Source of the DNA: Hyphomonadaceae bacterium
GTDB lineage: Bacteria > Pseudomonadota > Alphaproteobacteria > Caulobacterales > Hyphomonadaceae
Assembly: GCA_024742355.1 (NCBI GenBank)
Contig: JANSYM010000012.1
Coordinates: 1 to 64,000, forward strand
Length of the DNA: 64,000 nucleotides
Direction: 5' to 3'
The notes under the pieces: model-generated
The model's database searches: none
What the model saw: only the letters and a program-made list of their open reading frames with translations
Told to the model about the DNA's origin: nothing
Made by a program: the position numbers and the translations under genes
In this document: piece by piece, positions 27,606 to 49,513 of the stretch
How the letters are laid out: every line of letters begins with the position of its first letter
Numbering within the stretch: position 1 is the first letter of the stretch

Positions 27606-28175
27606 TCAGGCGGCTGAATAGCGCATCTGAATGCGATTGAGCGCATCATGCAATTCGTCGATCGGCGAGGCCTTGCGATCTGCGACCTCCGGGAAGCGCT
27701 GTTCGGAGTTATAGCGACCGAGCGCCATCTCGCGGGCGCGGCTGACACGGCTCTTCACCGTGCCGGCTGAACATCCGAGCACGTCGGCAGCTTCATCATA
27801 GGTGAAACCGGCAGCAACCACGAGAAGGAACGCTTCGCGTTGCGCACGTTTCAGCGAGTCCACGGCCTGCAACATTCGGGTCAGGCTGGAACGTTGTTCG
27901 AGATTGCAGTCGGCAACGAGTTTTGCTTCGATTTCTTCCTGCTCTCTGGTTTCGCTGCGCGTGTCGACGCGGCGCTGCTGATAGAAGTCATTCCTCAGAA
28001 TCCGGAACAACCAGCCGCGCAACGGGCCTTTGCCTGGGTCATAATCATCCTGGTGTTGCCAGGCTTTGAGACAGGCATTCTGAACCAGGTCATCCGACCG
28101 CGTCACATCACGGCAGAGCAAGCGAGCGTAGGCTCTCAGTTCTGGTAACAGTGCCTCTAATTTCTCAGAGAACAT
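27606..28175 (-). CDS. ECF sigma factor
   Basis: The 189-residue protein has regions sigma2 (DDLVQNACLKAWQ, about residues 28-40) and sigma4 (FTYDEAADVLGCSAGTVKSRVSRAR, about 123-147). Its layout resembles the ECF15/EcfG group of alphaproteobacterial general-stress sigmas, though this is not certain. ATG 28175 follows GGGGAT and matches the N-terminus of the neighbouring paralogue. An upstream TTG at 28196 is less likely. Its ribosome-binding region is almost identical to that of flgB. It is divergent from a second ECF sigma across 269 bases. Confidence 0.9.
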   Translation of the reverse strand: MFSEKLEALLPELRAYARLLCRDVTRSDDLVQNACLKAWQHQDDYDPGKGPLRGWLFRILRNDFYQQRRVDTRSETREQEEIEAKLVADCNLEQRSSLTRMLQAVDSLKRAQREAFLLVVAAGFTYDEAADVLGCSAGTVKSRVSRAREMALGRYNSEQRFPEVADRKASPIDELHDALNRIQMRYSAA

Positions 28176-28444
28176 CGCGAAATCCCCATAATTCAACCTA
28201 CACTAGTTTTTTAATACCTAAGATTTCGTTTCCAAGCAGGAAGACTTGAAATCTGGGCGCGTTCAGCACCCATGAGGCACCTTTGGGAAAGCAACCAGAG
28301 ACACAATGCGGCGTGAAAGCTTGGGTAGACTTCAATCTATACGCTTGTCCCCCAAACTAGTTACAGCGTTTACGAATGAAGAATTGGGTTTACCCTTAAT
28401 TAACCAACTCTTTGGACATCTTTAACGGCTAGAGGGGCTGAACG

Positions 28445-29017
28445 ATGTTCACAGACGAACTGGAAGCGATTTTGCCAGAGATCCGGGCCTATGCGCGGAT
28501 GCTTTGTTCCAACCGAGATATGGCGGACGACATTGTCCAAAATGCCTGTTTGAAAGCGTGGAAAGCGCGCACGTCCTTCGACCCCAAACGCGGCGCCTTT
28601 CGCGCCTGGATGTTTACCATCACCCGCAACGAGTTCCTGCAGCTGGTTCGCAAACAACGCCCGGTCGATTGTTACGACCCGGCTGATTTCGAATACAGAT
28701 TGGTCCAGGAATGCCAGCTTGAGAGCCGCTCGGCCTGTTCGGATGCGATCCAGGCGCTGTTCAAACTGAGCGCAGAACAGCGCGACGTGTTCATTCTCGT
28801 GCTCGCAGCGGGCTATTCTTACGAAGAAGCCGCGACGATCTGCAATTGCAGCGTCGGTACAATCAAGAGCCGGATCAACCGCGCCCGATCGAAGCTAAGC
28901 GAGCTGCTGACCACCAGCGAGAAAGACGATCCTCATTCTGCTGCTCAATCGATCGAATTTCACGGGCTCGATGACATTTTTGGGCGGGTCGACGCGCTGG
29001 TCAAAGACGCGGCCTAA
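28445..29017 (+). CDS. ECF sigma factor, paralogue of the divergent gene
   Basis: The 190-residue protein has sigma2 (DDIVQNACLKAWKA) and sigma4 (YSYEEAATICNCSVGTIKSRINRARSKL), an EcfG-like arrangement similar in sequence to its divergent neighbour (MFTDELEAILPEIRAYAR against MFSEKLEALLPELRAYAR). The C-terminus, about 25 residues after sigma4, is acidic. No anti-sigma gene is adjacent; the nearest is NepR at 42.6 kb. GAGGGG lies 8 bases before the ATG. A candidate small RNA with an EcfG-type promoter follows directly. Confidence 0.9.
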   Translation: MFTDELEAILPEIRAYARMLCSNRDMADDIVQNACLKAWKARTSFDPKRGAFRAWMFTITRNEFLQLVRKQRPVDCYDPADFEYRLVQECQLESRSACSDAIQALFKLSAEQRDVFILVLAAGYSYEEAATICNCSVGTIKSRINRARSKLSELLTTSEKDDPHSAAQSIEFHGLDDIFGRVDALVKDAA

Positions 29018-29059: not shown

Positions 29060-29085
29060 GGAACGGAATTGACCGCTCATGCGTA
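29060..29085 (+). promoter_or_regulatory. EcfG-type promoter of the candidate small RNA
   Basis: GGAAC at 29060-29064 and CGTA at 29082-29085 with 17 bases between. The known EcfG consensus is GGAAC-N16/17-CGTT, so there is one mismatch. The expected start, about 7 bases downstream, falls at the base of the first hairpin of the candidate RNA. Confidence 0.55.
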
Positions 29086-29091
29086 GGGTCA

Positions 29092-29156
29092 ATGGAAACG
29101 CCCGTTTCCAAATCTCCATTATTCCCTAGCCCGCATCGCAAGGTGCGGGCTTTTTT
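29092..29156 (+). ncRNA. Candidate small regulatory RNA, about 65 nt
   Basis: No gene fits here, but the layout is that of a small RNA: an EcfG-type promoter, a 5' hairpin at 29093-29110 (TGGAAACG/CGTTTCCA), an unpaired linker 29111-29127 and a strong intrinsic terminator. The linker segment AAATCTCCAT (29110-29119) can form 10 consecutive pairs, one of them G-U, with AUGGGGAUUU in the ribosome-binding region of both the minus-strand ECF sigma gene and flgB. It recalls GsrN of Caulobacter in being a stress-sigma-dependent RNA, but no sequence identity is claimed. Confidence 0.6.
29128..29156 (+). terminator. Intrinsic terminator of the small RNA
   Basis: AGCCCGCA (29128-29135) and TGCGGGCT (29144-29151) form a perfect 8-bp stem with an 8-base loop, and T residues run on to 29156. 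It also ends any read-through from the upstream sigma gene. Confidence 0.88.
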
Positions 29157-29304
29157 CTGCATTTTTTTGAATCCGCGCGATCTGTAATGGAATCGGGGGA
29201 CATAGCGCCCGAGAACGGGCGCAAGGTGTAAACAACTATACAACCAGTAATAGAATAGTAGGGGATTTCCCGTAGCTGTTTCCAGGCTAGGGAGAACATA
29301 AAAA

Positions 29305-30408
29305 ATGATTTCATATCCTCCTCCGAAATTCGAAGAGCAAAAATCGGAGATTTTGCAACGCTACCAAATTCTATGCGAAGATCAGTCTGCTGGCGCGCTC
29401 TGCCTGGCCGACTCAATCGCACTGGCCCTGCGGACACCTTACGTGATCGCAGCGCTCAATCGCCGCTACAGAAGCTGGTATCACTGCGAACATGGATTTT
29501 CCGGATACCCGAGCGCCGATCTTCAATCCTATTTCGCCCGCATGCACTTGTCGCAAAGCCGGTTTGAAGTGTCTGACATCGGAGAAGAATCCTTCTTCCT
29601 GAGCCATACGACGGGATTGGAGTTGCCCAAGATGAAGGCGCTCGCTGGCGTACCGCTAACCGATCCCAACGGTAAACGATTTGGCACGCTGTGCATCGCG
29701 GACCCGAATGCCCGCACGTTCAGCGACGCAGAAATGACCCTACTCGGAAGCTTCGGACAGCTGGTCAGCAATGATATCTGCATGCGCAGCGCCGCGCGCT
29801 ACGCGGTGCGCGATCTGGTCGAGCTCGAGCAGGAAAAATGTGACCTGTTCGAACTTGCAACCATCGATCCGCTGACCAAGGCGCTTAACCGCCGCGCGTT
29901 CATGCGCTTCGGCGAGCGCGAGCTGAACCGATTCAAGCGCGACAATACACGTCTGTCTGCTCTGATGCTGGATATCGACCATTTCAAACAGGTGAACGAC
30001 GTTCACGGCCACGCCGTCGGCGACCGTGTCCTGACTAAAATGGTCTCGGTAGCTGCCAGCGTGGTGCGAGAGGAAGACCTGATCGGCCGTCTCGGAGGCG
30101 AGGAGTTCGCGATTGTTCTGGTCGATTCCGGCGCGGATGCCGCCGCCCGCGTCGCCGACCGCATCCGCCAAGCGATCAAACAGGTGAAATTTCCAGGCGA
30201 TGGTGGCCCATTCAACGTCACAGTCAGCATCGGCGTTGCCGAGCCGCTGCCTATGGAAGCCAGCATTGATGACGTGCTGGAACGCGCCGACGCCGCATTG
30301 TACCAGGCCAAACGCTCTGGGCGTGATCGCGTGATCGTCGCTGCGGAGAATCTGCACGCACTGCCATCCGAACAGGCAGAACCGGCTACAAAACGCCTCA
30401 GAAACTAG
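29305..30408 (+). CDS. GAF-GGDEF diguanylate cyclase
   Basis: The 367-residue protein has an N-terminal GAF sensor domain (about 25-175) and a C-terminal GGDEF domain. The active site reads GGEEF in GRLGGEEFAIVL, and a product-inhibition I-site RxxD (REED) lies five residues before it, so the enzyme should make c-di-GMP with feedback control. The substrate-binding DIDHFKQVND and terminal ADAALYQAKRSGRDRV are intact. c-di-GMP would link to the flagellar and pilus genes nearby. The leader carries the hairpin 29205-29222, TATACAAC at 29237-29244 and GGGGATTT at 29261-29268. Confidence 0.93.
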   Translation: MISYPPPKFEEQKSEILQRYQILCEDQSAGALCLADSIALALRTPYVIAALNRRYRSWYHCEHGFSGYPSADLQSYFARMHLSQSRFEVSDIGEESFFLSHTTGLELPKMKALAGVPLTDPNGKRFGTLCIADPNARTFSDAEMTLLGSFGQLVSNDICMRSAARYAVRDLVELEQEKCDLFELATIDPLTKALNRRAFMRFGERELNRFKRDNTRLSALMLDIDHFKQVNDVHGHAVGDRVLTKMVSVAASVVREEDLIGRLGGEEFAIVLVDSGADAAARVADRIRQAIKQVKFPGDGGPFNVTVSIGVAEPLPMEASIDDVLERADAALYQAKRSGRDRVIVAAENLHALPSEQAEPATKRLRN

Positions 30409-38849: not shown

Positions 38850-39056
38850 ATGAGCAAGCCTAAACTATCAGTCGACGACCTGGTATATGTTGCCGATATG
38901 CTTCGCGCGATCGCATGGGTCAAAAGCGATATCAATCCCGCATCGCCGGAAGCGCTTTACGAACTGGAAGAATGCCTGGGTGCCGCAGAATCGGCCTTGC
39001 GCCGGGTCGCCGCCGAGATGACGATTTCAGCGCCCGCCGGAACAAAATCAAACTGA
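38850..39056 (+). CDS. Small protein, 68 aa, paralogue of 34123-34314
   Basis: It is an acidic helical protein with YVADMLRAI (residues 12-20) and a C-terminal ECLGAAESALRRVAAE (about 41-56), closely matching the product of 34123. The N-terminus is MSKPKLSVDDL. Function unknown. Its 3' end overlaps the stop region of the convergent XRE gene at 39048 by nine bases. The copy at 34123 likewise ends next to a convergent regulator gene, so the arrangement is repeated. Confidence 0.72.
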   Translation: MSKPKLSVDDLVYVADMLRAIAWVKSDINPASPEALYELEECLGAAESALRRVAAEMTISAPAGTKSN

Positions 39057-42495: not shown

Positions 42496-42617
42496 TACCG
42501 ACCCTTAAATAACGCAAAACCTGTATTGCAGAAATTATATAACTGACCGCCTTGCTTTAACGCGGCGGTTTCGTGTCCAAATGCTCACTCTAAGGGGATA
42601 ATGGTAGGGTCACGCAT

Positions 42618-42824: not shown

Positions 42825-42988
42825 GTTTGAGCCGCACCCAAAGCGGTGTTTCCTTGACCGACTGTTTGCCAACTGAATTTTTTCTGAACTTTTTTCCATG
42901 CTGCGGGAACAAACTCGAGCAGGGCCGCATAGTTCTTAGTGTAGCACCTGCTACGCACTCACTGCGGAACACTCGAAAGGAATTCAAA

Positions 42989-43324
42989 ATGGGGTCGGAT
43001 CCACTGATTGATCGCGAGATGCCACAATGGACCAAGTCCTTGCGGCGCCATGCGCACTTCTCTCAATCTATCGAAACAGAAGAGATGGCTGATGCCGAAC
43101 TCGACATTCAGGTGGATATTCTCAAAGCCATGACCGCAAAGGCGGCCGAGAGCCCGGTCGACATGTTGCTGAAACTGAAATTGTGGGAAAGCTTCGTGTC
43201 CCCGAACGGCGAGATCCGCGAGGACGATATCGAGTCTCAGCTCATCCTGTCGGTGATCAAGGACCTCGAAGCGTTTATGCAATCGGGCGGCGGCTCAATG
43301 ACAACATACGCCCAGGCCTCCTGA
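42989..43324 (+). CDS. Protein of unknown function, 111 aa
   Basis: It is an acidic helical protein (MGSDPLIDREMPQWTKSLRRHAHFSQSIE...) with no signal peptide and no recognised domain. AAAGGA lies before ATG 42989; the frame is open farther upstream but crosses an AT-rich gap. It follows nepR by 164 bases in the same direction and might belong to the same stress module, but nothing in its own sequence proves this. Confidence 0.6.
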   Translation: MGSDPLIDREMPQWTKSLRRHAHFSQSIETEEMADAELDIQVDILKAMTAKAAESPVDMLLKLKLWESFVSPNGEIREDDIESQLILSVIKDLEAFMQSGGGSMTTYAQAS

Positions 43325-43367: not shown

Positions 43368-43730
43368 CTAGCGCGCGCCAGCCAGGCGCAGCACTTCGCG
43401 TACCGGTCCGAGATTGCTGCTCTGGCGCAGGTCCAGCAGCAGATTCATGCAGTCGCTGAATTCCGTCGTATCAGATGCGTCAGTCTCGCCGATGCGATTG
43501 ACGACGTCTTCATCGAAGAACCAGCTGATCGGCAGATCGAGCACCTGGGAAATCTCGTAAAGCGTTCCGGCCGAAACGCGGTTCACGCCTTTTTCGTATT
43601 TCTGCACCTGCTGAAATGTCAGGCCAATCATGTTTCCGAGCTGTTCTTGAGTCAGCTTCGCGTCGCGGCGCGCCTGACGGATTCGACGACCAACTTGATG
43701 ATCCACGTGTGACGGGGTCTTGGCACTCAT
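43368..43730 (-). CDS. XRE-type helix-turn-helix protein (WFF motif)
   Basis: The 120-residue protein has a canonical XRE HTH (GRRIRQARRDAKLTQEQLGNMIGLTFQQVQKYEKGVNRVSAGTL, about 14-57) and ISWFFDED at 68-75. It is very similar in layout to the 39512 protein but has about 45 extra C-terminal residues. GGAGAG six bases upstream supports ATG 43730. A GTAAAC/GTTTAC dyad lies about 90 bases before the start. Confidence 0.87.
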   Translation of the reverse strand: MSAKTPSHVDHQVGRRIRQARRDAKLTQEQLGNMIGLTFQQVQKYEKGVNRVSAGTLYEISQVLDLPISWFFDEDVVNRIGETDASDTTEFSDCMNLLLDLRQSSNLGPVREVLRLAGAR

Positions 43731-43817
43731 TTTTCTCTCCATTCGCGTGCGGCGTTTTATGATTGAATATGCCGCTTATTCGCGCAGCGATAGTATGACG
43801 GACATGGTGAAGAGAAG

Positions 43818-48082: not shown

Positions 48083-48346
48083 CTAGCCCAGTATCATGGG
48101 GATGATGGTATTGTTGAAAAGATCGAGACAGACCCGCGTCATGTACCCGATGCTGAGAAAGAAAACGACGACCACGGCGACAATTTTCGGCACGAAAGTC
48201 AGGGTCATTTCCTGAACGGATGTCAGCGCCTGAACCAGGCCGATCGCAAAACCGAGCACCAGCGTCACGCCGAGAATGGGAAGCCCCATCATCACGCCCG
48301 TCCAGAGAGACGCGCGCAGAACTTCAAAAATTTCAGATTCGCCCAT
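48083..48346 (-). CDS. fliQ: Flagellar export membrane protein FliQ
   Basis: An 88-residue protein (start ATG 48346; a longer open frame upstream is not supported) with two membrane spans (about 15-38 and 52-75) and the typical pattern GLPILGVTLVLGFAIGLVQALTSVQEMTLTFVPKI. It is part of the export gate. It lies between fliE and flhA. Confidence 0.93.
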   Translation of the reverse strand: MGESEIFEVLRASLWTGVMMGLPILGVTLVLGFAIGLVQALTSVQEMTLTFVPKIVAVVVVFFLSIGYMTRVCLDLFNNTIIPMILG

Positions 48347-48362
48347 TATCCCCTGGCTCCGT

Positions 48363-49424: not shown

Positions 49425-49513
49425 CGAGAAATCCCCATAAGTTAACGATTCCGCAAAATTTGCGACTATAAGTTGAAGAAAGGATTAACAGATACCCTAG
49501 GTTTAATTAACTT

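Follow-up and report, generated by a model that had tools for sequence, protein, structure and literature searches.

The stretch between the ECF sigma factor gene sigma1 and a GAF/GGDEF diguanylate cyclase gene raises the question of whether a separate RNA is encoded there and, if so, which messages that RNA acts on. An initial annotation of the window (the whole 64,000-nucleotide stretch of DNA analyzed, from the genome here called G000) had read from the letters a GGAAC-N17-CGTA promoter, a 5′ hairpin, an unpaired linker and an intrinsic terminator, and all four elements are present at the positions given in Table 1. The promoter begins 42 bases 3′ of sigma1, and the diguanylate cyclase gene is the next one, at 29305. 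The hairpin has a loop of only four bases, GCCC, and its seventh pair is unpaired in two distinct rows of the alignment; the linker between hairpin and terminator is AAATCTCCATTATTCCCTA. The predicted fold has an energy of −27.6 kcal/mol (z = −5.3), and none of 200 shuffles folds as well.

Table 1. Positions in the window of the sRNA gene, its neighbors and the candidate target sites
Feature	Position	Strand	Basis or remark
sigma2, divergent paralogous ECF sigma gene, candidate target	27606..28175	-	Pfam, tree
ATGGGGATTT at sigma2 ribosome-binding site	28180..28189	-	10 pairs with seed; before sigma2 start 28175
sigma1, EcfG-like ECF sigma gene directly 5′ of sRNA	28445..29017	+	Pfam Sigma70_r2 and r4_2, tree
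EcfG-class promoter of sRNA, GGAAC-N17-CGTA	29060..29085	+	Read from sequence; boxes invariant in 9 genomes; -35 GGAAC 29060-29064, 17-base spacer, -10 CGTA 29082-29085
sRNA, predicted ~65-68 nt, predicted start	29091..29158	+	Fold z and comparative evidence
5′ hairpin, GCCC loop	29093..29110	+	6 of 7 pairs never vary
Single-stranded seed	29110..29122	+	AATCTCCATTAT (29111-29122) invariant in 9 genomes
Intrinsic terminator, stem-loop 29128-29151 and U run	29128..29157	+	Compensatory pairs
GAF/GGDEF diguanylate cyclase gene	29305..30408	+	Next downstream of sRNA in all nine carriers
nepR leader AGGGGATAATGG	42593..42604	+	12 contiguous pairs with linker; NepR by Pfam
Second promoter of the class, GGAAC-N17-CATA, before gene after nepR	42906..42931	+	GGAAC-N17-CAT[AT] in 9 of 9 carriers
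AUGGAGA just upstream of or at start of XRE-type regulator gene	43736..43742	-	7-9 pairs with seed
fliQ start region AGGGGATAATGGG	48342..48354	-	13 contiguous pairs with linker; FliQ by Pfam Bac_export_3
ATGGGGATTT at ribosome-binding site of gene taken as flgB	49429..49438	-	10 pairs with seed

Strong comparative evidence leads us to regard the sRNA gene as real and stand-alone. The sRNA occurs in nine of 29 genomes of the genus (Henriciella-like) and in none of 76 other genomes of the family; its 29-base core, GGAAACGCCCGTTTCCNAATCTCCATTAT, was searched allowing up to three mismatches and is exact in all nine carriers, and the reversed pattern has no match in the same 29 and 76 genomes. The carriers are the window's own genome, four close relatives of it (G028, G024, G011 and G008) and four more distant genomes (G015, G003, G001 and G026). 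Seven exact core matches carry names, of which five are Henriciella MAGs and the other two a Hyphomonas and a Hyphomonadaceae MAG. A BLAST search with a 141-base query returned 12 rows among 61 genomes, of which three terminator-only rows (L010-L012) were dropped, leaving the nine carriers. The sRNA lies 3′ of a sigma1 ortholog in every one of them, within ~120 bases in eight and at ~540 in G015; sigma2 runs divergently, and the GGDEF gene comes next after the sRNA. Invariant columns over the nine genomes are concentrated in the -35 region TGGAACG (7/7), the -10 region CGTAG (5/5) and the 5′ end, hairpin and seed together (30/32), against 1/16 in the promoter spacer, whose length is 17 throughout, 10/24 in the terminator, 18/93 downstream and 3/84 at the end of sigma1, a figure that is too low because sigma1 lies further off in G015. 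In the terminator stem, five of ten pairs are changed on both sides with every cell still paired, and this covariation is destroyed when the partners are slid. The conservation of promoter, linker and terminator on which the initial annotation had staked its reading is thus present in nine genomes, and the covariance search that it proposed sets the carriers apart: over 398 genomes of the order, model R1 scores 77.5-94.2 bits in eight carriers among the matches listed (without G026) and at best 32.4 bits outside the carriers, where 11 rows at 26.9-32.4 bits are near chance for 398 genomes.

Searches among known RNAs point to novelty. SdsR/RyeB is a stress-sigma-dependent sRNA built of a 5′ hairpin, a linker and a terminator. 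Its Rfam model (RF00111) gives 21.9 bits against a threshold of 38, which we treat as chance; no Rfam family matches the sRNA over threshold, and three of the sub-threshold alignments lean on the terminator. Viral contigs scanned with a 26-base pattern yielded no copy, and no earlier report of it appears among the titles and abstract openings listed. On these searches, we take the sRNA to be probably a new, narrow and lineage-specific RNA family.

Two readings would make the element something other than an sRNA gene. All nine genomes have it placed after sigma1 and before the GGDEF gene, as expected if it were the sigma1 terminator or a leader or attenuator of the GGDEF gene, but we consider this very unlikely, since the element has its own invariant promoter boxes flanking a divergent spacer, its hairpin and linker are conserved far beyond what a terminator needs, and a separate conserved block precedes the GGDEF gene; both versions were rejected on those grounds. 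That block (GTGTAAAC...TTTACA or a near form, 29200-29300 on the plus strand) is shared by the nine carriers and probably serves the GGDEF gene as a promoter or as a site for a regulator. Still less credible is that a tiny ORF (METPVS..., with its ATG at or beside the predicted 5′ end) is the conserved entity: the ATG is invariant in nine genomes, but the plus-strand frame runs to 6, 10, 26, 31 or 48 codons depending on the genome, and it varies no more at third codon positions than elsewhere, which upholds the earlier statement that no protein gene lies here. A tiny ORF on the minus strand of the element was dismissed by reading alone.

The promoter assignment depends on which sigma factors the carriers have. 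In a tree of 23 rows that holds both genes from five of the nine carriers, and that has a very long outgroup branch, a midpoint root and no EcfG of known function among its rows, sigma1 and sigma2 are sister clades (85/92) and fall into one group with the NepR-linked type A factors from G017 and G025, a group that leaves out type B (100/100). G017 and G025 are the two non-carriers of the genus that were examined; in them nepR adjoins an ECF gene of either type, type A being 53% identical to sigma2 and 40-49% to sigma1. Searching 61 family genomes with sigma1 gave matches of at least 65% in five genomes only, all of them carriers, the next best being 54%. The type B factor was not seen in the window's genome, where only sigma1 and sigma2 match sigma1 at E below 1e-30. 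Where the sRNA locus and nepR share a contig (seven genomes), 10-14 kb separate them, and a PhyR-like gene stands beside a second nepR on another contig of the window's genome. An EcfG-type factor thus appears to have been duplicated in the carriers and to lie apart from nepR, and because sigma1 and sigma2 are kin to NepR-linked EcfG-type factors, the stress-sigma reading of the promoter appears good. The start of sigma2 at ATG 28175 is backed by an in-frame stop just upstream in G003.

The EcfG-class promoter proposed in the initial annotation is borne out by its invariant boxes and by the tie between the sRNA and an EcfG-like sigma gene, and the second GGAAC promoter in Table 1, present before the gene after nepR in all carriers, gives its class another conserved member nearby. 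That gene (42989-43324, plus strand) encodes a 111-residue protein with no Pfam match and is likely a member of the EcfG regulon. Inspection also shows repeated sites of the form GGAAC-N15-17-CGTT ahead of genes near the type B loci in G017 and in G025. Counting against the EcfG reading, the -10 box of the sRNA is CGTA and not the textbook CGTT. No obvious GGAAC promoter was found in the stretches scanned at sigma1, sigma2, both nepR genes and phyR. GGAAC-N16/17-CGTW has 61 matches in the genome and 170 for the reversed control, an unremarkable count, so that conservation, and not the motif alone, makes the case for the promoter.

The question of targets was framed by the observation that the complement of the linker, ATGGGGATTT, precedes the starts of both sigma2 and the gene taken as flgB, and it is found there as described, including the single mismatch followed by three further pairs at sigma2. 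The 10 pairs at sigma2 are kept in five of nine carriers, namely the window's genome and its close relatives (with Watson-Crick pairs throughout in G008), and the site has one mismatch in the distant carrier G015; it is lost in G003, G001 and G026, three of the four distant carriers. Its proposed repression by the sRNA is therefore backed by the sites in close relatives and, nearly, in G015, and weakened by the three losses and by unremarkable pairing energies. We consider it plausible that sigma2 mRNA is a target in close relatives, giving negative feedback between sigma paralogues, and this is the best-supported part of the circuit first proposed.

For flgB the evidence is more uneven. The gene is named by its position before flgC, fliE, fliQ and flhA, its protein having no Pfam match. 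All 10 pairs are present in four of nine carriers (G000, G028, G024 and G011); the site reads AUAGGGAUUU in G008, GGGGAUUU in G003, GGGAUUU in G001 and G026 and GGAUUU in G015, so that only GGATTT is common to the nine. The earlier claim that flgB is repressed thus keeps a complete site in four carriers and is left with partial sites in five, where the seed is nonetheless invariant. The site is absent in the 14 non-carriers with a match, a contrast that is confounded by kinship because carrier flgB proteins are much closer to that of the window (71-100% identical, against 50-57% in non-carriers). Since the seed does not vary where the sigma2 site is gone or the flgB site is partial, neither target explains its conservation, which must have another or additional cause.

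Longer pairing with the linker than at sigma2 or flgB occurs in the window's genome at fliQ and nepR. The 13 pairs at fliQ recur in G024 and G028 and fall to 6-7 in the remaining five, eight genomes having been examined, and the 12 at nepR fall to eight or fewer in the other seven examined. The bases at the fliQ sites of G024 and G028 differ slightly and still form 13 pairs. In G000 one sequence, AGGGGATAATGG, is common to the fliQ start and the nepR leader, and the match to the linker extends over 13 and 12 bases, respectively. Among the carriers, the complementarity retained most broadly is that of AUGGAGA at the XRE-type regulator gene, where the same seven bases stand in all eight carriers in which the ortholog was found; as 7-9 pairs on a Shine-Dalgarno sequence, it is a weak indication. 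The XRE-type gene lies beside nepR (43368-43742, minus strand), and orthologs of at least 83% identity occur in carriers only, with matches of ~61-67% in carriers and non-carriers. The start region of the gene after nepR, which begins AUGGRG in eight of nine, also pairs with the linker, and the leader of the GGDEF gene does so strongly in G003 and G015 only. We regard flgB, fliQ, nepR and the XRE regulator as weaker target candidates than sigma2.

How far such pairing exceeds chance depends on the measure. The pattern RTGGRGRTTT has four sites in the window, one of them the sRNA's own antisense, against 0.54 expected (none of 100 shuffles reaches four), and 31 in the whole genome against 8 for the reversed control; among the 30 with context, four stand just before a plausible start (sigma2, flgB, an ExbD-like gene and a gene for a small membrane protein), and one more (L146) overlaps what may be the TTG start codon of a lipoprotein-like ORF. 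When 297 window leaders were ranked by energy, with overlapping ORFs dropped by length, sigma2 came second, 71 of 200 shuffled linkers reached the best score, and no flgB leader stood among the best 15 of 297. Mean energies were taken over orthologous leaders for the 64 of 75 genes that had them in five or more of the nine genomes (the other 11 were left out); fliQ came first, a result reached by 5 of 60 shuffles, and sigma2 fifth, its mean being attained by the top gene in 30 of the 60 shuffles.

Contiguous pairs were counted as well. At least 10 are found in some genome for seven genes (sigma2, flgB, fliQ, nepR, flhB, flgC and a small gene at 38850), against 2.04 with permuted linkers (6/300 reach seven), and in 16 gene-genome cells, in which near-identical genomes are counted several times, against 3.02 (2/300); at least nine pairs in at least four genomes occur for two genes against 0.60, which 42 of 300 shuffles reach. 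With the anti-SD blocks CUCC and CCCU kept, the seven genes stand against 2.25 (4/300), and cells of at least 10 and at least nine pairs are matched in 2/300 and 21/300. The window's genome alone, with all genes kept, gives four genes against 0.75 (3/300). Because sigma2 and flgB had led to the sRNA in the first place, they were left out of a repeat test, in which five genes against 2.33 (32/300) and seven cells against 3.16 (30/300) were not above shuffles. With the same gene caller, at least 10 pairs were found for 3 of 67 window genes (reached by 4/100 shuffles) and for 5 of 370 genes in a 400-kb stretch elsewhere (C4; 9/100). The leader tests used gene starts picked by script, not all of them correct (41506 is one of the wrong ones); the XRE-gene row for G011 represents a paralogue, and fliQ of G028 (13 pairs) and the gene after nepR were left uncounted owing to a misplaced start. 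Compared with the window leaders, a check of the kind that the initial annotation had called for, the linker stands out by contiguous pairs even against anti-SD-preserving shuffles, but not once sigma2 and flgB are left out, and it is unremarkable by energy. The target signal is suggestive but not decisive.

We favor, with a probability of roughly 0.68, a lineage-specific, stand-alone, trans-acting sRNA that is driven by an EcfG-type sigma factor and whose seed blocks translation of several mRNAs. Under stress, a general-stress sigma factor of the EcfG type (sigma1, sigma2 or both being the likeliest) would transcribe it from the GGAAC-N17-CGTA promoter, starting at the predicted 5′ end and stopping at its own intrinsic terminator. 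The product would be an Hfq-type RNA with a hairpin at its 5′ end, an exposed seed of 12 bases rich in C and U, and a U tail, for which the expected features are present by sequence (own promoter, exposed seed, terminator with U tail, Hfq encoded in the genome), and it may bind Hfq. Its seed would pair with the G-rich ribosome-binding or start regions of several putative target mRNAs and probably block their translation, repression being the sign of regulation that we infer; in close relatives, pairing with sigma2 mRNA would create the feedback between sigma paralogues. For such an anatomy, an EcfG-driven, Hfq-type RNA with a ribosome-blocking, CU-rich seed would be an ordinary mechanism.

The proposals about targets differ in how well they fit this evidence. 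The circuit first proposed, in which the sRNA represses sigma2 and flgB through AAATCTCCAT pairing with AUGGGGAUUU at their ribosome-binding sites, we regard as unlikely: both sites exist in the right place, with the carrier pattern and the excess over anti-SD-preserving shuffles given above, but they are not kept in three and five carriers despite the invariant seed, their energies are unremarkable, the signal is not significant without the two genes, and the flgB contrast follows kinship. It is a good deal more conceivable, at somewhat under even odds, that the seed serves one or more other conserved targets, such as the XRE regulator, and that pairing at sigma2 and flgB is incidental to Shine-Dalgarno complementarity. 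The constancy of AUGGAGA at the XRE start, the pairing start of the gene after nepR and the background of equally good sites elsewhere in the genome are consistent with this; against it, seven to nine pairs around a Shine-Dalgarno sequence weigh little, and these genes came to light on inspection rather than by prior prediction. More speculatively, and improbably in our estimate, the EcfG duplication in the Henriciella lineage might have brought with it a dedicated sRNA as the third arm of a stress switch, made by one sigma factor, damping the sister sigma and NepR, shutting the flagellar export operon at flgB and fliQ, and linking stress, motility and the neighboring c-di-GMP enzyme in one locus.

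The favored reading, a multi-target sRNA, finds its closest parallel in GsrN of Caulobacter crescentus, described as an sRNA activated by the general-stress ECF sigma factor, with a 5′ C-rich loop, an intrinsic terminator and an influence of Hfq, and with homologs typically near ecfG, nepR or phyR genes (PMC5869019). A known target of GsrN is katG. Like GsrN as described there, the Henriciella-type sRNA has an EcfG-class promoter, a terminator and a place near an EcfG-like locus, here behind the sigma gene in 9 of 9 carriers, a likeness of wiring; unlike GsrN, it is ~65 rather than ~100 nt long, its loop is only GCCC, and its invariant part includes the linker, AAUCUCCAUUAU. UdsC of Rhodobacter sphaeroides is reported to bind the 5′ UTR of rpoHII mRNA and to affect motility and stress resistance, its effect on the motility regulator torF being thought indirect (PMC9779115). 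Both are alphaproteobacterial sRNAs with the mRNA of an alternative sigma factor as a target (here a candidate), but UdsC, according to that account, is made from a 3′ UTR and acts on an RpoH-type factor. In Sphingopyxis granuli, the paralogues EcfG1 and EcfG2 are divergently placed with nepR adjacent, and GGAAC promoters have a flexible -10 box (CGTT, CATT, TGTT and GGTT are named), as many as 14 distinct -10 sequences being reported for an EcfG regulon (PMC7083833). The Henriciella-type locus likewise has two divergent EcfG-type paralogues and a GGAAC promoter with a non-CGTT -10 box, but nepR is ~10-14 kb off here, and the portion of the S. granuli report at hand names neither an sRNA nor CGTA.

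Taken together, the sRNA is most likely a new EcfG-class, trans-acting regulator with several targets and GsrN-like wiring. By the portion of the literature available to us, GsrN is the alphaproteobacterial general-stress sRNA that has been studied in depth, and the Henriciella-type sRNA would be another. With its nearly invariant 5′ half beside duplicated EcfG-type genes, it may offer a compact system for studying how an sRNA is wired into the partner-switching stress response, and its targets are cheap to test. The same locus would also allow one to ask whether sRNAs couple the stress response to motility.
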